This document shows, one piece after another, positions 39,708 through 64,000 of a stretch of 64,000 nucleotides of DNA (its first letter is position 1; each line of letters opens with the position of its first letter). The position numbers and the translations under genes were made by a program. The notes beneath the pieces are model-generated. The model searched no databases, was not told the origin of the DNA, and was given only the letters and a program-made list of their open reading frames with translations. This DNA is from an uncultured Lachnospiraceae bacterium (GTDB lineage Bacteria; Bacillota; Clostridia; Lachnospirales; Lachnospiraceae), in NCBI GenBank assembly GCA_947625135.1, contig CANQNE010000004.1:24595-88594 (forward strand), given 5' to 3'.

Positions 39708-42380
39708 ATGAGTCATCAGTTTTGGAAAAAGACCATTGCGCTGGCGCTGGCGGCAGTACTGGCCGCCGGCGGGGCGCAGCTTGATCGGGCAGGCACTTCG
39801 GCAGCAGAGACGGAGCGGACAGGAGAGTGGAAAGAGCTTCCCGGAACAACCAGTACCATGTCATCCTTTGATCCCAGCTTTTTATCTGTGACCGGCTTTG
39901 CAAAAGGCGCTGTCCATGACAGAACCGATGCCATAAACACAGAGAGATATCGGGTGGTGAAAACAGAGGAGGAATTCCTGAAAGCGCTTGCGGACGCCAA
40001 AACCGATATCGTAGATGTGATCGAGATCGCGGCGGATCTGGATCTGGGCTGGGATGCCCTTTCAGAGGAGGCTAAGCGTTACGGCGTGGTTTCCCAGTAT
40101 GGGTGGGATATGAGAGGAACCATCACCAATCCCTCTATACTGGCAAGCGGCGTCTCTCAGCTGACGATTTCCGACACCAAAGGACTGACTATTTTTTCCC
40201 AGGCCGGGAATACGGTGAAGCATGCGGAGTGGAAGCTGCAGGGCAGCAGTTCGGACATTGTGATCCGCAATCTGACCATCGACGAGATGTGGATGTACAA
40301 CGATGAAAAAGAAGGCGACACCAAATCCGGCGGATGGACGCTGATGAAGCTCAACGGTGTAAAAGGCGTGTGGATCGATCACTGCACCTTTACCCTTGGC
40401 TATGACGGCAATATGGATTCTGAAAATGGCGCTTCCGACATGACTGCATCATGGTGTAAGTTCAGTCTGGAAGCCGATGAAGACCCGGATAAGAACAGCA
40501 TGATCTACAAGACGGTCACTTATATGGAAGAACTGTATCAATCCGGTCAGCTGGGTTCGGACAGCGTCTATGCTTCCCTGCGGGAGACTGCCGGCGGCGA
40601 TCTCGGCAAGATTATGGCTTATGAGGCTTATCATACCAAATTTAACTTAAACGGATCCGGAGACAAGGATTTTAAGGACGGCAGGGATCAGCAGGACGGC
40701 AACCAGCGCCTGCACCTGACTATGGCCTACAACAAGGTGAACAACATCACCGTGAGATTTCCGCTGATCCGCCAGGGAACCGCCCATTATTTTAACTGTG
40801 TTCTGGACAATTCCGGCCACAAGAAGATCGCGGAGGAACTGGGCAAGGAATATGACACAGTGGCGATCAGTGCAAGGGACGGCGCCTGCGTAGGCGCGGA
40901 CACCTGTGTGTACAGGGAAGTCAAGACTGTTGTGGACTGTGAAGAACGGCAGACATCCAGCGCGGAGCATAGCAATGCTTTCGGCATTGACGAAGAATGG
41001 CGCTATGCCTTTGCCGGTGTGAAGAGTCATGTGCTGGTGGTGAATTCCACTGTGGAGACAGACGGAGAGACCTATACCGGCAGCAGCTGGGACAACCAGG
41101 GCGAAAATCTGTTTACAAGAAATTATAAATGGAACGACGGCAAGACAAGCATCGGCAATTTCCAGTGGTTTTCTCATCTGGTGGACGAGGACAAATATAC
41201 CCGTGGCGAAGCGCCCAAGGATGAAAACGGCAATTATACGTCCTTTACCATGACGTATGACAACAAGCTGACTTATGATTATCAGGTGCTTCCCCTTGCA
41301 CAGGTAGAAAAAACAGTAGACACTTACGGGGGAGCATATACGCTGAGAGAGAAGCCTGAATTTTGGCTCCGCACAGCGTATGATCCGTCTGAGAAGATCC
41401 TCACGGCAAAGGAAAAGAATGAAAAGGTGCCGGTGGAGGATCTGAAGCTGAACGTGGGAGAGGAAATACATGTGAGCGTGGGAAGTCCTCTCCAGATTTC
41501 CGCAGACGTGGTTCCGTCCCATGCGGACAATAAGGAACTGACATGGACCTCTTCCGATCCTGATATCGTGGAGGTAAAGGATTCCGGACTTGTGGCGGCA
41601 AGAAAGACAGGAACCGCCGTGATTACTGTGACCACAAAGGGTACGGACAAGGACGGAGGCGTGATCTCCAGGAGCTTTACGGTCAATACAGATACCCCTG
41701 TGCAAAAGATCATCATTGAAAATGCGCCTGCCCAGATTTATCTGGGAGATGAGACTACCCCGGCGGAGCAGGTGCAGCTTCAGGCTAAGGTGATCCCTTC
41801 CCATGCGGATAATCCCGCGGTTGTGTGGAGCTCCAGAAATGCCAGTGCGCTGCAGGTAGGGGAAGACGGGCTGCTGACCCCCTTAAAGCGTGCGGGAAAC
41901 GTCCGGATCACCTGTACTTCCGTGTCTGATCCCTCTGTTTTTGCCACGGTGACCATTTCGGTCAAAGAAGGGGTACGCCCGGCAGACACCAATACGCCGG
42001 AACCTTCTTTGGAGCCTTCCGACGCGCCTGTGCCTTCCGTGGAGCCTTCCGATGCGCCTGTGCCTTCCGTGGAGCCTTCCGATGCGCCTGTGCCTTCCGT
42101 GGAACCGTCGGAAACGCCAAAGCCTTCCGACACGCCTGTGCCTTCTTCAGGGCCGTCAGAATCCCCGAAGCCGGTGCTTTACGGCGATGTGAACGAGGAC
42201 GGCAGCGTGACGGCAACGGATGCGCTGCTGGTGCTGCAAAAGACGGTAAAACTCACAGACCTTACAGAGCGGGAGGCAAAAGCGGCAAATGTCAACGGAG
42301 ACAAGGAGATCAATACCGACGACGCGCTGCTGATCCTGCAGAAGGCGGTAAAGCTGATCCGAAAGTTTTCTGTGGAATAA
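39708..42380 (+). CDS. secreted PL1-type pectate lyase with Ig-like repeats and dockerin
   Basis: The 890-residue protein has a signal peptide (about 1-31). A parallel beta-helix PL1 domain (about 50-560) carries V-W-I-D-H-C-T-F, D-G-N-M-D-S-E-N-G and the substrate-binding R-F-P-L-I-R-Q-G-T-A-H. Two bacterial Ig-like (Big2) domains follow (about 575-760), then a Pro/Ser/Glu linker with three perfect ten-residue repeats. The C-terminus (about 824-890) is a dockerin-type pair of calcium loops (D-V-N-E-D-G-S-V-T-A-T-D and N-V-N-G-D-K-E-I-N-T-D-D). It should cleave polygalacturonate by beta-elimination outside the cell. It shares its architecture with the protein at 50500-53004. Confidence 0.93.
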   Translation: MSHQFWKKTIALALAAVLAAGGAQLDRAGTSAAETERTGEWKELPGTTSTMSSFDPSFLSVTGFAKGAVHDRTDAINTERYRVVKTEEEFLKALADAKTDIVDVIEIAADLDLGWDALSEEAKRYGVVSQYGWDMRGTITNPSILASGVSQLTISDTKGLTIFSQAGNTVKHAEWKLQGSSSDIVIRNLTIDEMWMYNDEKEGDTKSGGWTLMKLNGVKGVWIDHCTFTLGYDGNMDSENGASDMTASWCKFSLEADEDPDKNSMIYKTVTYMEELYQSGQLGSDSVYASLRETAGGDLGKIMAYEAYHTKFNLNGSGDKDFKDGRDQQDGNQRLHLTMAYNKVNNITVRFPLIRQGTAHYFNCVLDNSGHKKIAEELGKEYDTVAISARDGACVGADTCVYREVKTVVDCEERQTSSAEHSNAFGIDEEWRYAFAGVKSHVLVVNSTVETDGETYTGSSWDNQGENLFTRNYKWNDGKTSIGNFQWFSHLVDEDKYTRGEAPKDENGNYTSFTMTYDNKLTYDYQVLPLAQVEKTVDTYGGAYTLREKPEFWLRTAYDPSEKILTAKEKNEKVPVEDLKLNVGEEIHVSVGSPLQISADVVPSHADNKELTWTSSDPDIVEVKDSGLVAARKTGTAVITVTTKGTDKDGGVISRSFTVNTDTPVQKIIIENAPAQIYLGDETTPAEQVQLQAKVIPSHADNPAVVWSSRNASALQVGEDGLLTPLKRAGNVRITCTSVSDPSVFATVTISVKEGVRPADTNTPEPSLEPSDAPVPSVEPSDAPVPSVEPSDAPVPSVEPSETPKPSDTPVPSSGPSESPKPVLYGDVNEDGSVTATDALLVLQKTVKLTDLTEREAKAANVNGDKEINTDDALLILQKAVKLIRKFSVE
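42011..42100 (+). repeat. three tandem 30-base repeats in the linker of a pectate lyase gene
   Basis: A 30-base unit starting GGAGCCTTCCGA and ending CCTTCCGT occurs at 42011, 42041 and 42071; copies 2 and 3 are identical and copy 1 differs at one base. It encodes S-D-A-P-V-P-S-V-E-P units. Such near-identical units can change copy number by slippage or recombination. Confidence 0.85.
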
Positions 42381-49008: not shown

Positions 49009-50397
49009 ATGAAATCCTTTGAACAGATCGTGCAGGAATTTAACCAAAAATATGCAATCGATGTCAGCTTTGACCTTGTCTACCGCACCATCACCATCGG
49101 CGGGCGGCAGGCGGTGCTTTACTTTACCGACGGCATGATCAAAGACGACATTATGGAAAAGCTGATGGAGGGCTTTTTCGCGGTGAAGGAAGAAGACTTC
49201 CCGGAGAACGCCCACGAATTTTCCAAACGGGTGATCTCCTATGTGGAGGCAAATCTGGAGACGGATGAGGAAAAGCTGATTACCGGGCTGCTGACCGGTA
49301 TTGTGCTGCTGTATGTGGAAGGGTACAGCCAGTGGCTGATGATCGACTGCCGCACCTATCCGGCCAGAGGGGTGCAGGAGCCGGAAAAGGATAAAGTGCT
49401 CCGGGGCTCCCGGGACGGTTTTGTGGAAACCTTAAACTTTAACTCCGCGCTGATCCGCCGCAGGATCAGAAGCCCGGAGCTTCGCATGGAAATGCTCAGC
49501 GCGGGGAAAAGCTCCCACACGGATATTATCGTTTGCTATATGGAAAACCGTGTAGATCAGGCATTTTTAAAGAGCATCAAAAAGCGGATCCGGGAGATCG
49601 ACGTGGATGCGCTGACGATGAACCAGCAGAGCCTTGCGGAAGCGCTGTACAAATCCCCGTGGATCAATCCCTTTCCGAAAGTGAAATATTCCGAACGGCC
49701 GGACACCGCGGCGGCATCGGTGCTGGAAGGCAATATCGTAGTGATGGTGGACAATTCTCCTTCGGTGATGATCATGCCCACTTCCCTGTTCGATGTGACG
49801 GAGGAGGCCAACGACTATTATTTTCCTCCCATTACCGGTACCTATCTGCGTTTTTCCAGATTCCTGATCACGCTGACTACGTTGTTTCTGACCCCGCTGT
49901 TTCTTTTGTTCATGCAGAATCCCCAGTGGATCCCGGAGCAGTTTTCTTTTATCGTGGTGAAGGATACCATGAACATCCCTCTGCTGGCGCAGCTGCTCTT
50001 ACTGGAGCTGGCGATCGACGGCATGCGGCTGGCGGCGCTGAACACGCCCAATATCCTGAATACGCCCCTCAGTGTGATCACCGCGCTGGTGCTGGGAGAA
50101 TTCTCCGTCAAATCCGGATGGTTCAACGCGGAGGTAATGCTCTATATGGCATTTGTGGCGGTGGCAAACTACAGCCAGGCCAGCTATGAGTTCGGTTATG
50201 CCCTGAAATTTATGAGAATCATCCTGCTGATCGCGGTAGCGCTGTTTAATCTCTGGGGATTCATTCTGGGCACTGCCTTTATTTTCTGCTGTATCGCCTT
50301 TAACCGGACGATCTCAGGAAAAAGCTATCTGTATCCGCTGATCCCCTTTAAATGGGAAAAATTAAAGTCGAGAATTTTCCGGACCCATCTTCGGTGA
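49009..50397 (+). CDS. GerA/SpoVAF-family spore germination protein
   Basis: The 462-residue protein has the GerA-subunit layout: a cytoplasmic N-terminal domain of about 275 residues (G-L-L-T-G-I-V-L-L-Y-V-E-G near 110, V-R-G-S-R-D-G-type L-R-G-S-R-D-G-F-V-E-T-L near 145, I-R-R-R-I-R) and about five membrane helices with P-S-V-M-I-M-P-T-S-L-F-D. The closest type appears to be SpoVAF, the GerA-like protein of the dipicolinate channel complex, but the partners (SpoVAC, SpoVAD, SpoVAE or GerB/GerC) are not adjacent. It likely acts in the spore inner membrane. Confidence 0.88.
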   Translation: MKSFEQIVQEFNQKYAIDVSFDLVYRTITIGGRQAVLYFTDGMIKDDIMEKLMEGFFAVKEEDFPENAHEFSKRVISYVEANLETDEEKLITGLLTGIVLLYVEGYSQWLMIDCRTYPARGVQEPEKDKVLRGSRDGFVETLNFNSALIRRRIRSPELRMEMLSAGKSSHTDIIVCYMENRVDQAFLKSIKKRIREIDVDALTMNQQSLAEALYKSPWINPFPKVKYSERPDTAAASVLEGNIVVMVDNSPSVMIMPTSLFDVTEEANDYYFPPITGTYLRFSRFLITLTTLFLTPLFLLFMQNPQWIPEQFSFIVVKDTMNIPLLAQLLLLELAIDGMRLAALNTPNILNTPLSVITALVLGEFSVKSGWFNAEVMLYMAFVAVANYSQASYEFGYALKFMRIILLIAVALFNLWGFILGTAFIFCCIAFNRTISGKSYLYPLIPFKWEKLKSRIFRTHLR

Positions 50398-50438
50398 ATG
50401 TGCAGAGCGTTTCAAGTGACTGAAAAAATATAAAATCA

Positions 50439-50468
50439 TTGTCATATTTTCTGAATCTATGCTATACT
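50439..50468 (+). promoter_or_regulatory. promoter of the second pectate lyase gene
   Basis: TTGTCA (50439-50444) and TATACT (50463-50468) are 18 bases apart, about 25 bases before the ribosome binding site AGGAGG. Confidence 0.6.
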
Positions 50469-50499
50469 GTTTGTAAAAGACGGAGAAGGAGGAATGACT

Positions 50500-53004
50500 A
50501 TGAGGAGAAGAAAGCAAATCGCATGGGTGGCGGCGCTGGCTGTTGCGGCGGCTCTGTTCGGCCAGATACCGGTCCTGGGGGAAGCGGGAGGCATACAGAC
50601 CCGGGAAGCGCAGCCGGCGGTGACCCAGATCCCGGGGACGACAAGGGAGATCAGGGAATTTGACGCCAGCTTCCTGTCCCTGACCGGCTATGCGCTGTCA
50701 GGGGGAGAGATCCATGACCGCAGCCAGTATGTGGATTCCGACAGCTACCGGAAAGTGACGGATGAGACGCAGTTTCTGAGAGCGCTGATGGATGCGAGAG
50801 ACGGAAGCGTAAAGGTGATCGAGGTGGCCGCAGACATGAATCTGGGCTGGCACGAGATCGGAGAGGAAGGACAGCAATACTCCTGTATCCAGCCTTATGC
50901 CAATTCGCTGACCTCCGCCATCCCTGTGGGAAATCCCATGCTGATCGAGACGGGGATTTCTGAGTTGCTCATCAGCAATACCCACGGGCTGACGATTTTT
51001 TCCACGGAAGGCTACCATATCCGCCACGTGGAACTGAAGCTGCAGGAAAGCAGCAGCGATATCGTCATCCGCAATCTGGATTTTGACGAGACTTATGAAT
51101 GGGACGACTGGAGAGACAGCACCGGCGGCGGCAACGGCTATGCCAAGCGCACCGGGTGGAGCTATGTGAAGATCAACGGCGCCAAAAACGTGTGGATCGA
51201 CCACTGTAATTTCAGCATCGCTTATGACGGCATGATCGACGTGGAAAACGGCTCCAACGGCGTTACGGTCTCCTGGTGTAAATTCGGCGTACAGGATTTT
51301 TCCAATGAGAGTATGATCTATAAGACCATGACTTATCTGGAAAAACTCTATCAGGAAAACTATAACGACTCTTTCCATATTTACCGGATCATGCGGGACA
51401 ATGGGATGTCCATGGAGGATGTGATGGCCTATGGCGCTTATCACAAGAAGGTGCATCTGATGGGTGGCGGCGATAAAGATTATGAGACCAACGTGGATCT
51501 GCGGCTCACCATGGCCTATAATACATACAAGAATATGGGCTCCCGCCTGCCTATGCTGCGGGCCGGAAGCGCCCACCTGATGAACTGCTGGTTTGACAAT
51601 ACGGCCTTTTCCAAAATCGCTGAGAAAATGCAGCGGCTGGACGTGCGCAGCAAGATTGAAGCCGACGGCGGGTACGTACATTTTCTGGCAAGGGGGATCA
51701 ATCCGCTGCAGGGCGGCTCCGTGGGTGCGGACACCTGCGTTTATGAGGACTTCCACAGCTGTATGTACGGCAGCAACAGCGGCGGCAACGGGATCATCGT
51801 CAACAGCAGCTTTTCGTGCGGCGAGTACGACGAAGAGGAAAATCTGAAGGAATTGGTGACTTATGAGGGAAGCAGCTGGGACAACGGCGGAAAGAACTAC
51901 TTTACCTATTATGATGATCTGGGCTTTGATTATGATAACGGCCTGAACTACAAATGGAACGATCCGGGCGGCACCCTGCCCTATGAATATCAGGTGGTGC
52001 CGCTGGACGAGACAAAGACGGTCCTGGAAACTTACGGCGGCGCCGGCGTGGTGGATATGACTGCGGCGGAGTGGCTGAAGACTTCTTATGACCGATCCGT
52101 CGGCGTAACTGTATATGACAAGAACGAAAAAGTGGCGGTGACGGGCCTTTCCCTGAGCGCGGAAGAAAAAACCATGGAAGTGGGGGATCTGTTCCAGCTG
52201 ACCGGGACGGTTTCTCCAGCCAGAGCCACGGATCAGAGCCTGCTCTGGGAAAGCAGCGATCCTTCTGTAGCGGAAGTGGGAAAGACAGGGCTGGTATATT
52301 GTAAAGATGGAGGAAGCGCGGTGATCACAGCCAGAACTGCGGACGGCGGATTTGCCGCCTCCTGCCAGATCACTGCCATCGTCAGTGTCAAGGGGATCCA
52401 GCTTCCGGAAAAGCTGACCATATCGGTGGGCGACCAGTATCAGTTAGAGCCTGTTCTGACGCCAGGTCAGGCTGACAGTTCCATGGTAGTGTGGGCTTCC
52501 TCTAATACAGGCGTGGTGTCGGTGGACGAAAATGGCATGCTCACCGCCCATAAGACAGGCAGGGCTACCATTTCCTGCAGATCGGCGGAGGACAGGAGCA
52601 TACGGGATACCTGCTCTGTGACAGTAGAAGAAAAGACGGCGGGGCCCAGCGAAAGTCCCATGCCCAGCGAAGCACCGGAACCCAGCAAAGAGCCGGAGCC
52701 CAGCGAAAGCGCTAAGCCCAGTGAAGGGCCGGAGCCCAGCAAAGGGCCGGAGCCCAGTGAAAGCCCCATGCCCAGTCAGGAGCCGGCGGGAATCCCCGGC
52801 GATGCGGACGGCAGCGGCACCGTGAACGCGGACGACGCCCTGAGGGTACTTCAGCATGTGGTGAAGCTGCATATTCTGGATGAAAAAGGACAGAGAGCGG
52901 CGGATGTGGACGGCAGAGCCGGCATCACCGCAGACGATGCGCTCACGATCCTGCGGTATGTGGTAAAGCTCGTGGGCACGCTTTCCAATGAAACAAAAAT
53001 ATGA
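50500..53004 (+). CDS. secreted PL1-type pectate lyase with Ig-like repeats and dockerin, second copy
   Basis: The 834-residue product has a signal peptide and a PL1 beta-helix domain (about 45-545) with V-W-I-D-H-C-N-F, D-G-M-I-D-V-E-N-G and R-L-P-M-L-R-A-G-S-A-H. Two Big2 domains (about 550-715) and a Pro/Ser/Glu linker rich in P-E-P-S-x units follow. The dockerin-type C-terminus contains D-A-D-G-S-G-T-V-N-A-D-D and D-V-D-G-R-A-G-I-T-A-D-D. ATG 50500 lies seven bases after AGGAGG; the in-frame ATG at 50494 is too close. It is clearly paralogous to the lyase at 39708, and three LamG-dockerin genes follow it. Confidence 0.92.
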   Translation: MRRRKQIAWVAALAVAAALFGQIPVLGEAGGIQTREAQPAVTQIPGTTREIREFDASFLSLTGYALSGGEIHDRSQYVDSDSYRKVTDETQFLRALMDARDGSVKVIEVAADMNLGWHEIGEEGQQYSCIQPYANSLTSAIPVGNPMLIETGISELLISNTHGLTIFSTEGYHIRHVELKLQESSSDIVIRNLDFDETYEWDDWRDSTGGGNGYAKRTGWSYVKINGAKNVWIDHCNFSIAYDGMIDVENGSNGVTVSWCKFGVQDFSNESMIYKTMTYLEKLYQENYNDSFHIYRIMRDNGMSMEDVMAYGAYHKKVHLMGGGDKDYETNVDLRLTMAYNTYKNMGSRLPMLRAGSAHLMNCWFDNTAFSKIAEKMQRLDVRSKIEADGGYVHFLARGINPLQGGSVGADTCVYEDFHSCMYGSNSGGNGIIVNSSFSCGEYDEEENLKELVTYEGSSWDNGGKNYFTYYDDLGFDYDNGLNYKWNDPGGTLPYEYQVVPLDETKTVLETYGGAGVVDMTAAEWLKTSYDRSVGVTVYDKNEKVAVTGLSLSAEEKTMEVGDLFQLTGTVSPARATDQSLLWESSDPSVAEVGKTGLVYCKDGGSAVITARTADGGFAASCQITAIVSVKGIQLPEKLTISVGDQYQLEPVLTPGQADSSMVVWASSNTGVVSVDENGMLTAHKTGRATISCRSAEDRSIRDTCSVTVEEKTAGPSESPMPSEAPEPSKEPEPSESAKPSEGPEPSKGPEPSESPMPSQEPAGIPGDADGSGTVNADDALRVLQHVVKLHILDEKGQRAADVDGRAGITADDALTILRYVVKLVGTLSNETKI

Positions 53005-53079
53005 GAAGATTTATTATGAAATTTTTTTCAAAATAAGTCAGAAATATAAAAATTCATAGTGCAAATTGTTATGTTTGAA

Positions 53080-53107
53080 TTGACATTCAATGAAAATGGT
53101 GTAAAAT
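53080..53107 (+). promoter_or_regulatory. promoter of the first LamG-dockerin gene
   Basis: TTGACA (53080-53085) and TAAAAT (53102-53107) with a 16-base spacer lie about 50 bases before the start codon, so the LamG group need not depend on the lyase promoter. Confidence 0.6.
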
Positions 53108-53159
53108 ATATACATAACCATGTAGTATAGTGGCATGAGTATGAAAAGGAGAAGAGCGT

Positions 53160-55298
53160 ATGAGGAAAAAACAAAAATTCACAGCAATTGTGAAGCCCGC
53201 GCTTGCGGCAGCCCTTTCTCTTGCAATGGCGGTTTCGGGCATTGCAGTGATACCGGGCGCGGCCCATGCGGACGATGCGGAACCTGTTCTTTCACTGGAT
53301 TTTGAGAGAGGTCTGAACTGGTTCCATGATACTTATGGAAACGATTTTGATATCGTGACCAGCGATACCGTGATCGTAAAGAAGGTAGGCGATCAGGTTG
53401 AGTCCGGCGATAAGGTAGACGCAAACGGTTTTGTGTATACCGGAGACGGCAAGGATGCCAAGTACAATAAGACATCCGTTTCCAATCAGCCCGGCACCGT
53501 TTATGACGAGGAGACAAAGAGTACGGCGTTCCTGTACGGCGATACCGTGCAGCTGCCCCAGCTGGTGAAGGAAACATCAGCGGCAATCGCCGGCGATGAC
53601 GCGGCTACAGCGGCGCTGGATACCTCAGGCGGATCCGGCGTAGGCATTGGCGAGGTAGCTCGCGAGGCTATGGTATGCCAGTCCGCAGTGACGCTGCCGA
53701 ACCCTCTTGCCGATAAGAATCCTGCTGCGGTCACCATTACATACTGGGCTTATGTACCCGCTGATGCAGACAAGGATCTTTCTCTGATCGCGTTTGAGGG
53801 AACAGATGCGGCAGCAGCGCTTTACGCGGCCAATGACAGCGCAGCGGCGGCAAAGGGCAAATGGAATCAGTACGCGGCTGTATTTGGCGCTGACGGCGCG
53901 ACCTTCTATGTAAATGGCGAAGCCGTGGAAGAAAACTTCTTAAAGGTTTCCGGCACCTATGATCTGTCTCTGATCTCCGGCGGGAAGCTCTTCCTGGGCA
54001 GTTCTGCAAAGCTGGATCTGGAGACTCTTTACGGACAGAAGCTGGATGATGTGAAGTTCTATACCACAGCGCTGACAGCAGATCAGATCAAGGCGGCGTA
54101 TGATGCCGAGGCTGTGATCCCCGTTGCGGATGTTGCAAAGCCTGACGTAGTTTACAGCCTGAGCGACATGTCACAGATGACGGATATCACTACCGGTACC
54201 GACGCCAGAAGGAACCCCAACCAGCCTCTTGAGGTTGTGGATGATACCGTGAACGGCAAATCCGTTAAGGTTGCAAAAGTAAGCGCCCACACTGCCGGCT
54301 CCAGATATAAGATCGGTTTCTCCGTGGAGAATCCTTTCAAGGGTCAGACCCTGGAAGGCGCGACCATCGGTTTCTGGGCAAAGCAGGGAACAGAGAATAC
54401 ATACGTGAACATGATGTTCGTAGACGGTGACAAGCATGTGTTCAATCCCAAGGAGACAGAATTCAGCGGCACCGCGAGATCTTATCTCTACATCACCAGC
54501 GACTTTACCACCCTGTTCAAGGAAGGCGCCAGCAATCCCGATACAGCCAACCTGAAGAACACCTACCGTTCTGACGTAACTACAGAAGAAGTGACGGCGG
54601 CGAGAGCGGCGGCAGACACCTGGAGATATTTCACGGTGACCATGACCAATGCCGGCATCAATCTCTATGTGAACGGTGTGAAGCAGGTGAACTCTACTGC
54701 AGATATTTACGGTACCCGTTTCCTGGACGGTTACTTTGCAGCGGTGGCTGACCGGGCGAATGTAGGCAAGCTGAATGGTGTGTTCGGCGGTACCAACAAC
54801 CAGATGGCCACGACGATGATGGATTTCGTTACCTATGAGGATACGGATCTTTACTTCGGATGGAACATTTCTCCTTCCAGCTTTTCACAGACAGAGGGAA
54901 CAGACAGTCCTTCTTACTTCTATAATGTAAGCTTCTACAAGGCTGCAATGACGGACGAACAGGTGAAGGAGCTGTATACGAAGGAAACGTCAGGGGAGGA
55001 TCCCGGTCCGAAACCTTCACAGGGTCCCGAACCTTCACAGGGTCCTGAACCTTCACAGGGTCCCGAACCTTCAAAGAACCCTGAACCCGTTATCACACTG
55101 GGTGATGTGGACGGTAAGAACGGCGTGACTGCAGACGATGCGCTTGCAACGCTGCAGGGGGTTGTAAAGTTGAGAAAACTGAACGCCGACGAAACGAAGG
55201 CTGCAGACGTGGACGGCAAGAACGGCGTGACTGCAGACGACGCGCTGCTGATTCTGCAGAAGGTTGTGAAGCTGATCAGCAAATTCCCTGCAGAATAA
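53160..55298 (+). CDS. secreted protein with two LamG-like domains and C-terminal dockerin
   Basis: The 712-residue protein has a signal peptide ending near A-H-A-D. Two concanavalin/LamG-like domains follow: the first (about 40-320) shows I-T-Y-W-A-Y-V-P, A-T-F-Y-V-N-G-E and L-D-D-V-K-F-Y-T-T-A-L-T-A-D-Q-I; the second (about 325-625) shows G-F-W-A-K, I-N-L-Y-V-N-G-V and Y-N-V-S-F-Y-K-A-A-M-T-D-E-Q-V. A linker of P-E-P-S-Q-G repeats leads to the dockerin (about 647-712), both of whose loops read D-V-D-G-K-N-G-V-T-A-D-D. No catalytic module is recognised. A carbohydrate- or surface-binding role is inferred from the fold. Confidence 0.85.
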   Translation: MRKKQKFTAIVKPALAAALSLAMAVSGIAVIPGAAHADDAEPVLSLDFERGLNWFHDTYGNDFDIVTSDTVIVKKVGDQVESGDKVDANGFVYTGDGKDAKYNKTSVSNQPGTVYDEETKSTAFLYGDTVQLPQLVKETSAAIAGDDAATAALDTSGGSGVGIGEVAREAMVCQSAVTLPNPLADKNPAAVTITYWAYVPADADKDLSLIAFEGTDAAAALYAANDSAAAAKGKWNQYAAVFGADGATFYVNGEAVEENFLKVSGTYDLSLISGGKLFLGSSAKLDLETLYGQKLDDVKFYTTALTADQIKAAYDAEAVIPVADVAKPDVVYSLSDMSQMTDITTGTDARRNPNQPLEVVDDTVNGKSVKVAKVSAHTAGSRYKIGFSVENPFKGQTLEGATIGFWAKQGTENTYVNMMFVDGDKHVFNPKETEFSGTARSYLYITSDFTTLFKEGASNPDTANLKNTYRSDVTTEEVTAARAAADTWRYFTVTMTNAGINLYVNGVKQVNSTADIYGTRFLDGYFAAVADRANVGKLNGVFGGTNNQMATTMMDFVTYEDTDLYFGWNISPSSFSQTEGTDSPSYFYNVSFYKAAMTDEQVKELYTKETSGEDPGPKPSQGPEPSQGPEPSQGPEPSKNPEPVITLGDVDGKNGVTADDALATLQGVVKLRKLNADETKAADVDGKNGVTADDALLILQKVVKLISKFPAE
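55014..55073 (+). repeat. short tandem 18-base repeats in a dockerin linker
   Basis: An 18-base unit of the form CTTCACAGGGTCCYGAAC is repeated three times and then decays, encoding P-S-Q-G-P-E units between the LamG region and the dockerin. Confidence 0.7.
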
Positions 55299-55340
55299 AG
55301 CATTGAAGGAATGAGATACCCTATATAACATTGTATTTTG

Positions 55341-55380
55341 GCAGGACACTGCAGAAGGGCTTTTGAATGTGGTGTCCTGC
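55341..55380 (+). terminator. hairpin after the first LamG-dockerin gene
   Basis: GCAGGACAC (55341-55349) pairs perfectly with GTGTCCTGC (55372-55380) over a 22-base loop. No strong T-run follows (TTAAATAAT), so termination may be partial, or it may act as a processing or stability element. Confidence 0.55.
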
Positions 55381-55417
55381 TTAAATAATAAAATATTATA
55401 AAGGAGGAAGAAAAACT

Positions 55418-58408
55418 ATGAGTATTAGAAAATGGTTTGGTCGCACGGGCAAAACCGTGGCTGCGGTTGTTCTTTCCGTTGCGATGGCAGTGCCTGCGAT
55501 GCCGTATGCAGCAGCCACCGGGGCAGCGGAAGCGGCAACGATCTACTATGGCGACCTGGACCAGAACGGTGAAGTAGATGCAAACGATGCTCTGCGCATT
55601 TTGCAGCATGTGGTAAAGCTCAGCCCGATCACTGACGAAACTGTGTTGGCGCTTGCCGATGTAAACAATGACGGCAAGGTTAATGCTGACGATGCTTTGA
55701 GAGGTCTTCAGGTTGCGGTGAAGCTTGTGAAAGCTACAGAGTATACAGCGGAAACTCCTTCGGAGAATCCGACAAGTGCTCCCACGCCTTCTGCTTCCAC
55801 GGCTCCCAAGCCGACTCCCAGCCCGACTCCCAGTCCGACTCCCAAGCCTACTCTGACGCCGGTACCGCCGTTGCCTACGGTAACGCCCAATCCGGATCTG
55901 GTAGTGACCGGCGAGCCCATCGTAGTGGAGGAGCTGAACGGCGCCGCTTATGATGAGGAATCAGGCATATACACATTCCTTGACGGAGAGAACGGTATGT
56001 ATGCCGCTTATCCTTTCGCAGGCGCTTCCGAGCTGCGTGAGGTCGCATCGGAATGTCTGACTGCAACTGCAGAGCCGGGCTATGATCTGGTATGGGATCT
56101 GCCGGGCGCAAGCAAGACCGCGGTAGGAAGCGGCGACATCCAGTGGGATGTTATAGACAGGCGTGTCGCGTTCTTCCCAGTACCCAGACCTGGTATGCAG
56201 GATCCTGAGACCGGCCTGGTATACGAAAAAGGCGTTACATATCCAAGACCCGAATATACCAAGGGCATGAGTTTCAGCTTCTGGGCAAAATCCGCTGATC
56301 CCGACGGCAATGACGTGGCGCCTGTGCTGACCATTATCGGCAGCGGTTTCTACGCCACCGTGAAGCTGAATGGTACTGTTCAGTTTGCGGATACAAGCGA
56401 TATCTACAACCATCTGGACAATGGCAGCCGTATCAACCTGCCCAACCAGTGGGTTTACTACACCGTGACTATCGCAAACGACTGGATCACCGTTTATGTA
56501 AACGGTCAGGAGAATCTGTTCACCCGTCTTGATATTACCCGCGACAATATCTCTCATTTCAACGACGGATTCCTGACAAGGTATAATTCCGCAGCAGGTA
56601 TGACGGAAGAAGATCACGCCGCAGATATCCGCGGTTATCATACGCTGTCTACAGAGTGGTACTATAACACTCAGTATGATCAGTGGATGAGCCATGACCG
56701 GTGCAGCATCTTCGGCAATGCCCGCTACCGCGGCTCGAACGCCGGACGTACGCTGTTGATGGATTTCCTGACCCGGTCAAGCGCCGAGCTTTATATCGGC
56801 GGCGTTGACGAGTCCTGGTCTGTGAGCAATGCGACCCACAGGATGACTTACGGTACGCAGGTGGCACAGATCACTGCTTATGCGAAAGAACTGACTGCGG
56901 CAGAGGTGGCTTCCAACTATGATGCAGCAAAGGCAAATGTGCCTGCGGACATCCCTGTTCCCACCGCTACGCCGGAGCCGACTCCTACGCCGACTCCTAC
57001 TGTAGATCCCAGCGCAACGCCGACTCCTACGCCGGAGCCGACTCCTACGCCGGATCTTACCAAGCCGGTTGAGGGTACCAAGTTAAATCTTTCTTCTACA
57101 AGCAGAGATAAGAAGTACAATGCCACAGGTACCTTTACCATGGACGAGACAAGCGGCATCATTACCTTTAATCAACCGGTATCGGTGGATACGGACGGCG
57201 CCAATTACGTAGGTCCGATTTTCGAAGATCTGATGAAGAACAACACCAAGATCACCCAGAGCTTTGCCTCCGCCTTTGAGGGACAGGAGATGCTGCCGGA
57301 GACCACAAAGGATGAAAACGGTGTGGACCGCCAGACAGTGGCAAACAACCGTTATGCTGTGCAGTCTCCCCGAAACAACTGGGATGACGTATACTATGGC
57401 CCTCTGTACAACTGGGGCGTGACGCTGGATGCAAGCAATATTCTGGGCTATAAGGATCCCATTGACTGGAAAGCGCCCGGTATGCAGATCACCAAATTCC
57501 CCAGACCCAAGTGGACCACAGGCGCAAGCTACAGCTTCTGGTATAAGCCTACGGCGGATGAGAGTACGGAGGACGCAATCCTGACGCTGTACGCAACGAA
57601 CAACTACCTCTTCTATATGAACGTGGAGGGCGGTGTGTTCTTTACTTCGCTGCAGGGCGGCAGCGGTAAGGATTGGCAGAATAATAAGGAGCCCTTCTCC
57701 GATACTTCTGTACAGCCTTACAATGCTTTTGTAGCGCTGGGCGATCCCAATGCTGTGAAGCTGGGCGAGTGGAATTACTACACCGTTACTTTTGCCAACG
57801 ATATGATCACCACCTATATCAACGGCAAGGAAGTAGAGTATTCCAGACTGAACATGAACAGAGGTTATCTGAAGAACTTCAACGGCGGTTTCCTGACCCG
57901 GTATAATCCTATCGGCCTGCGTTTTGAGTCCATCCCCTATGATGATCCTCATGGATATATCAAGAAGAGCGGACATCTGCAGGATGCGCCGGAGACGAAT
58001 CTCTCTACCTTCCATAATGAAGCAGCTGATGTGATTTCTATCCGTGCAAACGCCGCCTATGAAGGTGAATTTTCGGATGGCATCTATCACGTGCTTGATC
58101 CTGCGAAGAAGAAGATCGGTACGCTTTTGACAGACTTCCTGTCCAACAGCAGCACCAGCAAGGTTGTGCTGGGCGGTTATTTTGAGGCGCCTCTGACGGA
58201 TGAATTTACCGCGGATATGGATGCAGACGGCAACTTTATCGAAGGCAGCGGCTGGAAGTTTGAGGAGTTCAAGAACGTGAAGTTCTCTACCACTCATAAG
58301 ATCCCCGCAGGCGCACAGGCTTACGACCTTGAGTTCTATGAGTGCGAGCTGGCGGCGACACAGGTAGCTGCGAACTATGAGGCTGCACAGGCAAATGCGC
58401 CGCAATAA
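55418..58408 (+). CDS. secreted protein with N-terminal dockerin and two LamG-like domains
   Basis: The 996-residue protein has a signal peptide (about 1-40) followed at once by a dockerin-type module (about 44-107) with loops D-L-D-Q-N-G-E-V-D-A-N-D and D-V-N-N-D-G-K-V-N-A-D-D. A Pro/Thr/Ser linker leads to a LamG-like domain (about 165-500), a second Pro/Thr linker and a second LamG-like domain (about 545-990). Both contain N-D-[WM]-I-T-[VT]-Y-[VI]-N-G and a D-F-L-[TS] then G-G motif shared with the neighbours. No catalytic module is seen. AAGGAGGAAG precedes the ATG. Confidence 0.85.
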   Translation: MSIRKWFGRTGKTVAAVVLSVAMAVPAMPYAAATGAAEAATIYYGDLDQNGEVDANDALRILQHVVKLSPITDETVLALADVNNDGKVNADDALRGLQVAVKLVKATEYTAETPSENPTSAPTPSASTAPKPTPSPTPSPTPKPTLTPVPPLPTVTPNPDLVVTGEPIVVEELNGAAYDEESGIYTFLDGENGMYAAYPFAGASELREVASECLTATAEPGYDLVWDLPGASKTAVGSGDIQWDVIDRRVAFFPVPRPGMQDPETGLVYEKGVTYPRPEYTKGMSFSFWAKSADPDGNDVAPVLTIIGSGFYATVKLNGTVQFADTSDIYNHLDNGSRINLPNQWVYYTVTIANDWITVYVNGQENLFTRLDITRDNISHFNDGFLTRYNSAAGMTEEDHAADIRGYHTLSTEWYYNTQYDQWMSHDRCSIFGNARYRGSNAGRTLLMDFLTRSSAELYIGGVDESWSVSNATHRMTYGTQVAQITAYAKELTAAEVASNYDAAKANVPADIPVPTATPEPTPTPTPTVDPSATPTPTPEPTPTPDLTKPVEGTKLNLSSTSRDKKYNATGTFTMDETSGIITFNQPVSVDTDGANYVGPIFEDLMKNNTKITQSFASAFEGQEMLPETTKDENGVDRQTVANNRYAVQSPRNNWDDVYYGPLYNWGVTLDASNILGYKDPIDWKAPGMQITKFPRPKWTTGASYSFWYKPTADESTEDAILTLYATNNYLFYMNVEGGVFFTSLQGGSGKDWQNNKEPFSDTSVQPYNAFVALGDPNAVKLGEWNYYTVTFANDMITTYINGKEVEYSRLNMNRGYLKNFNGGFLTRYNPIGLRFESIPYDDPHGYIKKSGHLQDAPETNLSTFHNEAADVISIRANAAYEGEFSDGIYHVLDPAKKKIGTLLTDFLSNSSTSKVVLGGYFEAPLTDEFTADMDADGNFIEGSGWKFEEFKNVKFSTTHKIPAGAQAYDLEFYECELAATQVAANYEAAQANAPQ

Positions 58409-58421
58409 GTTCATAGGGATT

Positions 58422-58472
58422 TGCTGTTTCCCTGGCGGAGCCGTATAGGCTCCGCCGGGACAGCAGTCTTTT
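58422..58472 (+). terminator. strong hairpin between LamG-dockerin genes 2 and 3
   Basis: GGCGGAGCC and GGCTCCGCC form a perfect inner stem around GTATA, extended by GCTGT and ACAGC arms to about 58423-58465, followed by a short T-run (58467-58472). It ends gene 2 or limits read-through into gene 3. Confidence 0.75.
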
Positions 58473-58506
58473 ATGATAAAAAATTATAAAGGAGAGATAA
58501 GACAAA

Positions 58507-60417
58507 ATGCGAAACATGAAATTTTTCAAGTCATCATTGGCAGCGACGCTTTCTCTGGCAATGACGCTCACAAGTTTTGCAGGGGCAGCGCCCGTTGCGC
58601 TGGCGGCGGAAGATGACGCCGCGGCAGCACCCAAGGCTTTTCTGACCTTGGATTTTAACAATGGGTATGACGACATTGCTGCTTTTGACGCAGATTACGA
58701 GGTTGTGAAGAACGGCGCCGAGCCTAAGCTTGTGAAGGAAAATTATGACGGCGAAGACATTCAGGTGCTGGAGCTGCAGCCGTCTACCGGCGAAGATGTG
58801 TACACAATGGACTACTACAACCGTGATCAGGTTTATGCAGGCAAGACCGAGAACTCTACGATCAAGATGAAAAACCCCTTTGCAACCCTGGGCGCTGATT
58901 ATTACAAAGAGTACGAAGAGACAGATATCCCCGGCGACGGCAGTCTGAAGCAGGAGGTTTATGATACCAGATATCAGCCTGTATGGACAAAGGGCGCTGT
59001 TATGAATTACTGGATCAAGGTTCCCACAGCAGAAGCACAGGATGCAAAGGGACGTACCGTTGGTATCAATTCCAGTATCTTCACATGGGATCTGGTTGAC
59101 TATCAGTTCCAGGCGGACGATTATGCAAAATATCTGGTAAGGCATAAATTTGATGTGGATGTTGCCAAGCAGGATCCCAGCATTGAAGTCAATGAGTCCG
59201 GCGTTCCCGAGGACAGCGATTTCTGGTTTGCCTATGCAAAGGATGAGGACGGACAGGTGAAGATGTTTGAGGGCGACGACGGTACAGTAGCGCCTGTTCT
59301 GGATGCGAAGTCCAGCGACGAAGCGAAAAACAAGTTCGGTCGTTATTTCGCTGCAAATCCTAACTATGTACAGGGTTATATTGGAAACGACGAGTCCGAC
59401 TATACATTGATCTTCAATGAGTCCATCGCGTCTTATAACACCCTTCCGGAAATTACGGATCAGGTAGATGCAGCCGGCGAGACGGTAATTAACTTTGGTA
59501 CTTCTAAGGTTCGTGTTGCAAAGACCCACGGCGCAATGCAGATCGACTCCGACAGTTCTTTCCTGTGGAACAACGACAGTGAGTTCGGCGTGAACCTGAA
59601 CCCCAACCTGATAGCTTCTCATGGAACGAGAGGCGATGTTCAGAACGGCGACCGTATGTTCATGAATTCATGGAAGGGCAACACCGGCGATGATGAGGCT
59701 CCGGACAATGCGCCTAAGCTGGCGGATTCTCCTTATTCACTGCCCGGCGAATGGCACATGGTTACTGTAACGCTGCAGAATGACTGGGTAGAGTTCTATC
59801 TGGACGGCGAAACAGTAGACGTGAGATCAAATTATGCAACCCGCGGCGGCACAGGCCTTGGCGGCGGCAGAACCTTTAAGCGTCTCAACAAAGGTACTGG
59901 TATGAGATATGGTTACGGTAGTGAGAAAGGCATGATCGATGCTTCTTATGGTAACTATGTATGCCGTCTGATGCTTGACTGGCTGACCAATCCGGAGACC
60001 ACCTTTGCAATCGGCGGCGTAACCGGTATTGAAGGCGGCGTAAACCGCAACAGCGTGACCCATCCGGCACTGCAGTCTGATGCGGACGCTGCGCTGTTCA
60101 ATATGAGCACAAAGACTGACACAGTTAAGATCGCGAAGGTTGAGTTCTTTGCCGATATGATGACAGAAGATCAGATCGCTGATCTCTATGCGGCAGGCAT
60201 GCATCCTACGGCAGCTGAGAAGGGTGATGTAAACGGCAAGAACGGTATCACCGCTGATGATGCACTGGCAACGCTGCAGATCGTTGTAAAGCTGATCACA
60301 CCTACTGATGAGCAGACTGCGGCAGCTGACGTAGACGGCAAGAACGGCGTTACTGCTGACGATGCACTGATGATCCTGCAGAAGGTTGTAAAGCTGATCA
60401 AGGAATTTCCCGCATAA
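58507..60417 (+). CDS. secreted protein with LamG-like region and C-terminal dockerin
   Basis: The 636-residue protein has a signal peptide (about 1-34) and a long LamG-like region (about 40-570) with V-M-N-Y-W-I-K-V, E-W-H-M-V-T-V-T-L-Q-N-D-W-V-E-F-Y-L-D-G, then L-M-L-D-W-L-T and F-A-I-G-G, and K-V-E-F-F-A-D-M-M-T-E-D-Q-I-A. The dockerin (about 572-636) has loops D-V-N-G-K-N-G-I-T-A-D-D and D-V-D-G-K-N-G-V-T-A-D-D. It is homologous to the two genes before it, so the cluster arose by tandem duplication. No catalytic residues were recognised. AAAGGAGAG precedes the ATG. Confidence 0.85.
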   Translation: MRNMKFFKSSLAATLSLAMTLTSFAGAAPVALAAEDDAAAAPKAFLTLDFNNGYDDIAAFDADYEVVKNGAEPKLVKENYDGEDIQVLELQPSTGEDVYTMDYYNRDQVYAGKTENSTIKMKNPFATLGADYYKEYEETDIPGDGSLKQEVYDTRYQPVWTKGAVMNYWIKVPTAEAQDAKGRTVGINSSIFTWDLVDYQFQADDYAKYLVRHKFDVDVAKQDPSIEVNESGVPEDSDFWFAYAKDEDGQVKMFEGDDGTVAPVLDAKSSDEAKNKFGRYFAANPNYVQGYIGNDESDYTLIFNESIASYNTLPEITDQVDAAGETVINFGTSKVRVAKTHGAMQIDSDSSFLWNNDSEFGVNLNPNLIASHGTRGDVQNGDRMFMNSWKGNTGDDEAPDNAPKLADSPYSLPGEWHMVTVTLQNDWVEFYLDGETVDVRSNYATRGGTGLGGGRTFKRLNKGTGMRYGYGSEKGMIDASYGNYVCRLMLDWLTNPETTFAIGGVTGIEGGVNRNSVTHPALQSDADAALFNMSTKTDTVKIAKVEFFADMMTEDQIADLYAAGMHPTAAEKGDVNGKNGITADDALATLQIVVKLITPTDEQTAAADVDGKNGVTADDALMILQKVVKLIKEFPA

Positions 60418-60466
60418 TCAACAAAGGGTATTTTCAGAAAAGTCAGTTTTGATGTAATGTATCATG

Positions 60467-60512
60467 AGGGCGTTCCAAAGGTCAATGAGATTGACCGGAG
60501 GGGCGCCCTTTA
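60467..60512 (+). terminator. terminator after the LamG-dockerin cluster
   Basis: AGGGCG (60467-60472) pairs with CGCCCT (60504-60509), and an inner stem GGTCAAT/ATTGACC (60480-60486, 60490-60496) closes a GAG loop. T residues follow. Confidence 0.75.
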
Positions 60513-60553
60513 AAATTTACAATGAGAAAAGCCGGAAAAAAATAAAAAAAAGC

Positions 60554-60582
60554 TTGCATTTTGCATGACTTTGTTATATGAT
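60554..60582 (+). promoter_or_regulatory. tRNA-Glu promoter
   Basis: TTGCAT (60554-60559) and TATGAT (60577-60582) have a 17-base spacer; the start would be near 60589, about 25 bases before the mature tRNA. Confidence 0.7.
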
Positions 60583-60613
60583 ATCTAAGCAGTCAGGCAA
60601 GACTGCCGGGTAT

Positions 60614-60685
60614 GGCTCGTTGGTCAAGGGGTTAAGACGTCGCCCTCTCACGGCGAAAACAGGGGTTCGATTCCCCTACGAGCTG
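60614..60685 (+). tRNA. tRNA-Glu (anticodon CUC)
   Basis: The 72-base sequence folds as a cloverleaf. Acceptor arms are GGCTCGT and ACGAGCT (with a terminal G-U pair), discriminator G. The anticodon loop reads CCTCTCA with anticodon CTC, and the T arm is AGGGG-TTCGATT-CCCCT. CCA is not encoded. CUC is the rarer glutamate isoacceptor next to UUC. A poly-T run follows immediately. Confidence 0.95.
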
Positions 60686-60720
60686 TTTTTTTAAGAGAAT
60701 ATCATAAAATCCTTGAAAGT

Positions 60721-60759
60721 GCTGAAAACGTTGTATTTTAGGCGTTTCCGGCATTTTTT
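60721..60759 (+). terminator. second terminator downstream of the tRNA
   Basis: GCTG-A-AAACG (60721-60730) pairs with CGTTT-C-CGGC (60743-60752), followed by six T residues. It lies about 35 bases after the tRNA end. Confidence 0.65.
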
Positions 60760-60884
60760 AGTTCGCTGAAGTGAATTCAAAATCGATGAAATAGCTATTG
60801 CTCTTTTTCATCCGGCTGATTCAAAGGGATAATCATTTATGGATTAAATGGGAATGGATGTCCAAAATTCGGAGGTTTACCACT

Positions 60885-61298
60885 ATGATCATACTTATAA
60901 TTGACGCGCAGGGCGGCGGAATCGGTCGTCAGCTTGTTTCTTCCATCAAACAGGAACTGCCCGATGTGGAGCTGCTGGCTGTCGGAACCAATGCGGCGGC
61001 GACTGCCGCAATGTTAAAGGCCGGTGCTTCTTCTGCCGCAACCGGCGAGAACGCAGTCATTGTCTGCTCAGGAAAAGCGGATATTATCGTCGGTCCTATT
61101 GGGATTGTCATAGCAGATTCCATGCTTGGAGAGATCACTCCCAAAATGGCTCTCGCCGTGGCGCAGAGCAGAGCAAAGCGCATACTTATCCCGTTCTGCT
61201 ATTGTGACAATATCATCGTGGGAGCAGAAACGGCAAGCACGACGGAACTGATCCAAAAAGCTGTTGCAAAAGTACAAGAGCTATGCGGGGCATCTTGA
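60885..61298 (+). CDS. DUF3842 family protein
   Basis: The 137-residue soluble protein begins M-I-I-L-I-I-D-A-Q-G-G-G-I-G-R-Q-L, a Rossmann-like glycine loop, and continues with G-T-N-A-A-A-T-A-A-M-L-K-A-G-A and V-G-P-I-G-I-V-I-A-D-S-M-L-G-E. This matches the uncharacterised DUF3842 family. ATG 60885 lies nine bases after GGAGG; upstream in-frame codons are not supported. Its position ahead of larB and larC suggests a link to nickel-pincer cofactor or lactate-racemase biology, which is inference from neighbourhood only. Confidence 0.8.
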   Translation: MIILIIDAQGGGIGRQLVSSIKQELPDVELLAVGTNAAATAAMLKAGASSAATGENAVIVCSGKADIIVGPIGIVIADSMLGEITPKMALAVAQSRAKRILIPFCYCDNIIVGAETASTTELIQKAVAKVQELCGAS

Positions 61299-62283: not shown

Positions 62284-62301
62284 CGTTTGGAGAGAATTGA
62301 A

Positions 62302-63057
62302 ATGCAGAATGAAACAAAGAAACTTTTAGAGTCCGTTCAAAATGGCTCTATTTCGGTGGACGAGGCGCTCGTCCGCTTAAAAGCACAGCCGTTTGACGAT
62401 CTTGGTTATGCAAAGGTTGATCTCCACCGTGAAGTCAGGCAAGGCGTTCCCGAGGTCATTTACGGCGCAGGTAAAACGCCGGAGCAGATCGTTGGAATTA
62501 TGGACGCCATGCTGCAAAACGGGCAAAAACAGATTCTGATCACACGGCTTACGAAGGAATCTGCCAATATCATTTCAAAATTCCGCCCTCTTACCTACCG
62601 GGAAAACGCGCGGATCGGATATTATGGCTCCATCCCGGATCCTGACGGGATTGGAACGGTGGTCGTCGCCACAGGAGGCACAAGCGATATTCCTGTTGCG
62701 GAAGAGGCCGCACTCACGGCGGAATTTTTCGGGAACAGGGTGGTCCGTCTTTTTGATGTTGGCGTGGCGGGACTTCACAGGCTGCTCGCACATAAAGATG
62801 AAATCATGAGCGCCAGCGTGATCATCGCCATCGCCGGAATGGAGGGCGCGCTTGCCAGCGTGATCGGCGGTCTTGCCGACTGTCCTGTGATCGCTGTTCC
62901 CACCAGCGTGGGATATGGAGCGGCCTTTGGCGGATTATCCGCCCTGCTGTCAATGCTCAATTCCTGTGCCAGCGGCGTATCCGTCGTCAATATCGACAAC
63001 GGCTTTGGCGCAGGGTATTTTGCAAACATGATCAATCACATGGAGGCGAAAAAATGA
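62302..63057 (+). CDS. larB: nickel pincer cofactor biosynthesis protein LarB
   Basis: LarB carboxylates and hydrolyses nicotinic acid adenine dinucleotide to begin the nickel-pincer nucleotide used by lactate racemase (LarA). The 251-residue protein has an N-terminal helical part and a C-terminal PurE-like domain with V-V-V-A-T-G-G-T-S-D-I-P-V-A-E-E-A, I-A-I-A-G-M-E-G-A-L-A-S-V-I-G-G and V-P-T-S-V-G-Y-G. ATG 62302 is seven bases after GGAGAG and is preferred over TTG 62287. Its stop overlaps larC (ATGA). larA and larE are not in the window. Confidence 0.94.
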   Translation: MQNETKKLLESVQNGSISVDEALVRLKAQPFDDLGYAKVDLHREVRQGVPEVIYGAGKTPEQIVGIMDAMLQNGQKQILITRLTKESANIISKFRPLTYRENARIGYYGSIPDPDGIGTVVVATGGTSDIPVAEEAALTAEFFGNRVVRLFDVGVAGLHRLLAHKDEIMSASVIIAIAGMEGALASVIGGLADCPVIAVPTSVGYGAAFGGLSALLSMLNSCASGVSVVNIDNGFGAGYFANMINHMEAKK

Positions 63058-64000
63058 GGACACTATATCTGGATTGCGGAATGGGCGCTGGGGGAGATAT
63101 GCTGACTGCCGCGCTTTTGGAGCTTTTGCCTGAACCGGATCAATTTGTGGACAGGCTGAATGCGCTCGGAATCCCCGGCGTGGTATTCCGCAAAGAAAAA
63201 ACGGTCAAATGTGGCATCACCGGCACACATATATCTGTTCTCATTCAGGGCGCGGAAGAAGGAACGGAGGATCACCGTCACGAACACGACCATGGACACG
63301 ACCATACGCATGAACATGAGCATGAACATACGCACGAGCATGAACATACGCACGAACATGAGCATGAACACGGACACCACCATCACAGCGGGATGCACGA
63401 AATAGAACATATCGTTGCGGATTTGAAGCTCCCGGAAAAAGTTGAAAAAGATGTCCTTGCGGTTTACAGACTGATCGCTGAGGCGGAAAGTCACGCCCAC
63501 GGCGTGCCCGTTTCCGATATTCATTTCCACGAAGTCGGCACAATGGACGCGGTTGCGGACATTACGGCTGTCTGTCTCCTGATGAATGAGCTTGCGCCGG
63601 ATGAAGTGATATGCTCTCCCGTTCACGTCGGAAGCGGTCATGTCAGATGCGCCCACGGGATCCTGCCTGTTCCGGCGCCCGCGACAGCATTCATTTTACA
63701 AGGCGTACCCACTTATGGAGGCGGCGTCGAGGGGGAACTGTGCACCCCAACGGGAGCGGCTCTGCTCAAACACTTTGTCGATCGTTTCGGCGATATGCCC
63801 GTGATGAAGACACAGGCCATCGGCTATGGAATGGGGAGAAAGGATTTTGAAAGGGCGAATTGCGTCCGCACCATGTTCGGTGAAGGCGGGGACAAAACGG
63901 ACGTCGTTTTAGAGCTTTCCTGCAATGTGGACGATATGACGGCTGAGGAGATCGGCTTTGCAATGGATCGCCTTTTTGAAGGCGGCGCAAACGAGGTCTT
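63054..64000 (+). CDS. larC: nickel insertion protein LarC, truncated by the window edge
   Basis: LarC inserts nickel into the pincer nucleotide in a CTP-dependent reaction. About 315 residues are visible, starting R-T-L-Y-L-D-C-G-M-G-A-G-G-D-M-L. A strikingly His-rich segment (about residues 77-120, mainly E-H and T-H-E-H repeats, then H-H-H-H) should bind or buffer nickel. Later motifs include H-F-H-E-V-G-T-M-D-A, G-R-K-D-F-E-R-A-N and N-V-D-D-M-T-A-E-E-I-G. In Lactiplantibacillus plantarum the protein is split into LarC1 and LarC2 joined by ribosomal frameshifting. Here a single frame already reaches the NVDDMT region, so no shift is needed up to the edge. Confidence 0.94.
   Translation, partial: MRTLYLDCGMGAGGDMLTAALLELLPEPDQFVDRLNALGIPGVVFRKEKTVKCGITGTHISVLIQGAEEGTEDHRHEHDHGHDHTHEHEHEHTHEHEHTHEHEHEHGHHHHSGMHEIEHIVADLKLPEKVEKDVLAVYRLIAEAESHAHGVPVSDIHFHEVGTMDAVADITAVCLLMNELAPDEVICSPVHVGSGHVRCAHGILPVPAPATAFILQGVPTYGGGVEGELCTPTGAALLKHFVDRFGDMPVMKTQAIGYGMGRKDFERANCVRTMFGEGGDKTDVVLELSCNVDDMTAEEIGFAMDRLFEGGANEV

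Follow-up and report, generated by a model that had tools for sequence, protein, structure and literature searches.

We analysed a stretch of 64,000 nucleotides from an uncultured Lachnospiraceae bacterium (the window), which lies on contig C4; the draft genome amounts to 2.29 Mb in 75 contigs and is 97% complete. On its plus strand, positions 53160-60417 hold three adjacent genes, here called A, B and C. The encoded proteins contain five LamG units in total and one dockerin each. Genes and modules were assigned as follows.

53160..55298, plus strand: gene A, 712 amino acids; signal-like N-terminus, two LamG units, proline-rich linker, C-terminal dockerin
53265..54119, plus strand: LamG unit A1, D-F-L motif missing
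54120..55019, plus strand: LamG unit A2
55092..55289, plus strand: dockerin of A, under the Pfam cut-off; 74% identity to the dockerin of C
55418..58408, plus strand: gene B, 996 amino acids; signal-like N-terminus, N-terminal dockerin, two long LamG units
55541..55732, plus strand: dockerin of B, Pfam 35.9 bits (cut-off 22.9)
55880..56947, plus strand: LamG unit B1
57050..58405, plus strand: LamG unit B2, with long insertions
58507..60417, plus strand: gene C, 636 amino acids; signal-like N-terminus, single large LamG unit with insertions, C-terminal dockerin
58624..60210, plus strand: LamG unit C1, of a type found fused to PL1 pectate lyases elsewhere
60217..60411, plus strand: dockerin of C

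The signal-peptide-like N-termini of A, B and C were judged by eye. Laminin_G_3 (Pfam) was detected above its cut-off in A and B; C scored below it, yet was homologous by profile comparison. Profiles of the excised LamG units revealed that those of A, B and C are mutually homologous. Excision was needed here, since comparison of the whole-protein alignments of B and C gave the dockerin only. All three dockerins have the duplicated calcium-loop/helix module of ~60 residues that marks type I. The original prediction had described three consecutive LamG-dockerin proteins without a recognisable enzyme. This was confirmed: no convincing enzyme domain was found in A, B or C by Pfam, and the NCBIfam scan resulted only in matches far under the cut-offs. 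The three predicted LamG motifs are present in the units, with the exception of the third in A1.

It is still conceivable that one or more of the LamG units is an enzyme that escaped recognition, such as one of the 3-keto-disaccharide hydrolase type. PF06439 scores above its cut-off of 26.8 in A (27.8 bits) and B (33.2 bits), and D, R and W residues are invariant in B and C. A sequence search of the PDB with B returned dockerins, chance matches and, for unit B2, 3imm, which was solved as a 'putative secreted glycosylhydrolase' (E 0.72, not significant). However, the PF06439 matches span 45 (A) and 35 (B) residues, over which Laminin_G_3 scores more bits. A GH16-type acid motif is not present, and A2-type units of L145 and L142 have T in place of the D in the D-F-L motif. 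We regard a hidden enzyme as very unlikely.

Conservation of the A-B-C cassette

The three genes were found in the same order and on one strand in G245, a genome of another genus of the same family, on L163.

L163, 3649-5733: A, in the same layout
L163, 5913-10205: B, three LamG units instead of two
L163, 10236-12131: C

In G002, a sister species, contig L143 carries A (same layout, L143:1066-3240) and the first part of B, and L090 (= G002:C148) carries the end of B together with C. Relatives of B are present in G002, G245 and G280; in G280 strong B and C relatives are on separate contigs. G001, a member of the same genus, has a C-type relative and lacks a strong B relative. The protein search with A gave a single relative, thus A is sparsely sampled. 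Further features were found around the three genes.

53080..53107, plus strand: promoter-like site TTGACA-16-TAAAAT upstream of A, 11/12 matches; aligned and conserved in G002
55340..55381, plus strand: RNA hairpin in the A-B gap, 14-pair stem, no T run; z -4.1
58422..58465, plus strand: RNA hairpin in the B-C gap; z -7.8
60466..60510, plus strand: RNA hairpin 3' of C, possible 3' end of the unit; z -4.1
50494..53004, plus strand: PL1 pectate lyase with Big_2 and dockerin, a neighbour outside the conserved cassette

The promoter-like site of A was the top one of 16 sites in 50200-60900, where shuffled sequence gives 9.7 sites. In G002, A begins ~180 bases past a GerA-like gene and no lyase lies between; in G245, the cassette comes after a CNNM/CorC-type gene, again without a lyase. 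An operon with the upstream pectate lyase was therefore rejected. With no lyase there in either genome, and with a separate, conserved promoter-like site in front of A, the unit consists of A-B-C, and the lyase is a local neighbour. For the same reasons, placement after a dockerin pectate lyase, from which a link to pectin had been predicted, is a weak argument. The window holds another PL1 pectate lyase at 39708-42380, also with a dockerin and Big_2 domains.

The predicted hairpins between the genes were found as stable stems in both gaps. By eye, the A-B gap of G002 has a similar hairpin at the same place, and that of G245 has a hairpin with a T run instead. In the cip-cel operon of Ruminiclostridium cellulolyticum, subunit stoichiometry is described as set by stem-loops (PMC4423207, PMC10311766), and by analogy the A-B and B-C hairpins might set subunit ratios. 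For the hairpin 3' of C the pattern scan gave no terminator call. A tRNA-Glu (CTC) gene at 60613-60686 lies immediately 3' of the cassette.

Relatives of C in public genomes with names all belong to uncultured Lachnospiraceae (8/8 loci). With the C profile, relatives were detected in 3 of 61 related genomes, all of one genus (E up to 1e-15), and in 6 of 299 family genomes, representing 5 of 298 genera (E up to 1e-30); two of these six were among the earlier three. Dockerin matches amounted to 48, 16 and 31 in the three C-positive genomes of the 61-genome set, compared with 0 to 10 in the remaining 58. Four further C-positive genomes had 17, 29, 36 and 26. In the sampled genomes for which dockerins were counted (the 61 and the four further ones), C-type LamG modules accompany dockerin expansions. 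The genome of the window contains more of this LamG family. B-type units occur on C1, C15 and C13 (a single protein with three of them), and C-type units on C7, C64 and C72. At the start of C13 and the ends of C15 and C64, LamG/dockerin open reading frames run into the contig ends in VEPS-type repeats. Additional LamG-dockerin proteins were probably split by the assembly at these ends.

LamG fold and candidate ligands

Structure models were made for B and C, as had been suggested with the original prediction. Both models matched chains of the LamG fold. The top match of both was domain 4 of AbnA from Geobacillus stearothermophilus, described as a LamG/ConA-like beta-sandwich that binds arabinan (PMC9110388). 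This match was near-tied with other sugar-binding LamG domains, and identity to AbnA domain 4 was 12-14% across the aligned part. As described there, domain 4 is one module of a GH43 arabinanase, whereas the A-B-C units have long insertions and are carried by dockerin proteins. Clostridial neurotoxin binding domains, which ranked top in Foldseek without realignment, were taken as an indication of the shared lectin fold only.

Four species from three genera have the LamG type of C in fusion with PL1 pectate lyases. Together with the AbnA match of the models, these fusions provide stronger grounds for pectin than gene placement does. Thus ligand capture or adhesion for pectin, as originally predicted, is still favoured, although the placement argument for it is weak. 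Alternatively, the LamG modules might bind mucin or other host glycans, and A, B and C would then be mucosal adhesins. The top rank of AbnA for both models and the occurrence of the C-type module on pectate lyases speak against such a role, and no sialidase family was found among the proteins scanned; we consider it unlikely.

Dockerins and cohesin-like proteins of the genome

The genome of the window gave 49 dockerin matches. For the scan of dockerin proteins 49 candidates were used, 45 plus four from the scan of the cassette region, some of which have no Pfam dockerin at E 0.001. Four open reading frames (one on C13, two on C15, one on C64) were left out, as was C6:78883, which has no open reading frame of 130 amino acids. 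Pectate lyase (PF00544) was detected in 4 of the 49 candidates, once under the cut-off. The largest group were proteins with BspA-type leucine-rich repeats (10/49). The others were peptidases, amidases, transglutaminases, esterases, GH95, lipases, flavodoxin and more, or had no family. Dockerin-fused cellulases and hemicellulases, the main clients of a cellulosome, were few, with one GH5 fusion (with amidase) and one GH95. Because the dockerin set is this broad, dockerin attachment alone is uninformative on pectin.

Some members of this set have uncommon domain combinations. On C6, dockerins are fused to flavodoxin and to DUF362 (L064:3597-4469 and 13499-14965), which is unusual for a secreted dockerin system; the same stretch also holds two dockerin-esterases. 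On C27, an N-acetylmuramoyl-L-alanine amidase, a dockerin and a GH5 cellulase-type domain are combined in one protein (L070:3125-5230).

Two cohesin-like proteins with one module each were found in this genome.

C29: cohesin-like protein, PF00963 26.3 bits (cut-off 24.1); transmembrane-like segment
C7:54788-55768: cohesin-like protein, 20.8 bits, below the cut-off of 24.1; PKTGD-type tail (by eye)

No multi-cohesin protein was detected in the draft genome by PF00963 or by a wider cohesin profile. The wider profile recovered the same two proteins; both were in its building set, hence the result indicates only that no other cohesins were seen. Divergent cohesins are reported to escape profile searches (PMC11557425). 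A classical cellulosome was set aside, as no multi-cohesin protein was found by the two profiles in this draft and cellulase clients were few. Comparison of the profiles of the two cohesin-like types with solved structures matched no cohesin. Comparison with Pfam-positive cohesins of relatives gave support between weak and moderate; with hhalign, the C7 type matched them with a probability of 84.5%, and the C7 and C29 types barely matched one another (1.7%). The C7-type profile found matches in 6 of 7 dockerin-rich genomes, including G002, G245 and G280, which had not been used to build it, and none in G001.

Adjoining the C7 cohesin-like gene are a PMT gene and the gene of a protein from the same LamG family (C7:47867-51424), whose tail resembles a sorting signal. 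Such a tailed LamG protein beside a PMT gene was also found in G001 and G206. In G206 a run of seven genes codes for a tailed LamG protein, PMT, a LamG-dockerin protein, a cohesin-dockerin protein (30.0 bits), a tailed cohesin-like protein, a dockerin-PL1 and a dockerin-CE8; the tailed LamG was recognised by purpose-built profiles and gave nothing in Pfam at E 0.001. In G183 the neighbours of a LamG-dockerin protein are a PL1-dockerin protein and two cohesin-like proteins, one scoring 20.2 bits and the other without a Pfam match. Cohesin, dockerin and a pectinesterase-like region are joined in one polypeptide in G001 (L137), where the cohesin is under the cut-off on the whole protein, and in G002 (L138), where the pectinesterase part was read by eye. 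P0054, a relative of the C family, combines LamG, dockerin and cohesin in one chain. These neighbourhoods and fusions support docking without proving it.

The proximity to PMT genes in three genomes would also be in line with a surface coat, with LamG modules that attach to glycans of the bacterium's own envelope or to proteins glycosylated by PMT, and that serve to structure the surface instead of catching food. The majority of the 49 dockerin candidates are not carbohydrate-active enzymes, and in R. flavefaciens some dockerin proteins of group 4 have been suggested to structure the surface (PMC2930009). However, the PL1-LamG fusions indicate an external substrate, and we judge a coat of this kind to be rather improbable.

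Outside these subjects, the window contains an open reading frame at 63054-63998 with a long His/Glu-rich stretch, which we take to be LarC-like, downstream of another at 62287-63057, presumably LarB-like.

Proposed display of A, B and C and known systems

We tentatively propose that A, B and C are binding subunits that hold pectin at the cell surface, a reading to which we give slightly less than an even chance. The proteins would be exported and then held at the cell surface by single-cohesin proteins that receive their dockerins. There the LamG modules may hold pectin, probably by arabinan-type side chains, near dockerin-bearing pectate lyases. The proposal draws on features read from the DNA, namely the LamG and dockerin modules, the gene order, the promoter-like site, the PL1 fusions and the genomes with many dockerin matches and few detectable cohesins. 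It further draws on a predicted LamG fold with an AbnA-like lectin surface. Several observations weigh against it. The lectin fold is common to proteins of many specificities, and the dockerin set of the genome is broader than pectin. In the dockerins of A and C, Lys occupies in both loops a position that usually holds a calcium ligand. The match of C7-type modules to Pfam-positive cohesins is only moderate, with E values of 6.2e-5 (C7) and 0.22 (G206).

The proposed arrangement would resemble CttA held by ScaE in Ruminococcus flavefaciens. CttA consists of carbohydrate-binding modules and a dockerin, resides on ScaE and has been proposed to act in substrate targeting and adhesion (PMC5301203); ScaE is a single-cohesin protein that is covalently anchored to the wall by sortase (PMC2930009, PMC5301203). 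Common to both would be a binding-module protein with a dockerin on a wall-anchored single-cohesin partner, which is putative in our case. In contrast, CttA as described targets cellulose, employs an X-dockerin dyad and belongs to a full cellulosome, whereas here LamG modules and type I-like dockerins occur and no multi-cohesin scaffoldin was found. R. flavefaciens FD-1 is also listed, in 2010 and 2017, with UNK-LamGL(CBM?)-Doc and UNK(LbetaH-LamGL)-Doc, both with '+' entries in an interaction table whose column heads are not in the text available (PMC2930009, PMC5301203). These proteins likewise combine a LamG-like module with a dockerin and no known enzyme, one being marked as a possible carbohydrate-binding module. 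Their host, however, is cellulolytic and has a full cellulosome, the text available mentions no A-B-C cassette, and the two sets are compared by description only. Another comparable case is Lachnoclostridium sp. MSJ-17, described as 'scaffoldin-containing' and presumably non-cellulolytic, with up to 39 dockerin proteins and few cohesins (PMC11557425). It shares many dockerins, few cohesins and single cohesins with C-terminal transmembrane helices; in the description available it differs in owning one two-cohesin scaffoldin.

The system had been predicted to be undescribed. This applies to the cassette, as no published description of the A-B-C genes was found in the literature searched, and not to LamGL-dockerin proteins or the CttA-ScaE pair, which are known from the accounts of R. 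flavefaciens. Literature on LamG with dockerin was found for R. flavefaciens only, and none was found that adds pectin. Compared with the literature examined, the conserved three-gene LamG cassette and its link to dockerin-rich Lachnospiraceae are apparently new, as are the recurrent fusions of PL1 with LamG and the neighbourhoods of LamG, PMT and cohesin genes.

Among dietary fibres pectin is a major one, and the way in which Gram-positive gut bacteria hold it is understood less well than that of Bacteroides with its SusCD systems. A wider reading, which we offer as possible though doubtful, is that several dockerin-rich, cohesin-poor Lachnospiraceae have a pectin system without scaffoldin, in which wall-anchored single cohesins display an A-B-C coat of a new arabinan/pectin-binding LamG family. 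If true, this would be cohesin-dockerin display without a multi-cohesin scaffoldin and would add a candidate new family of pectin-binding modules. Such display would be a separate cohesin-dockerin architecture, overlooked by surveys that demand multi-cohesin scaffoldins.

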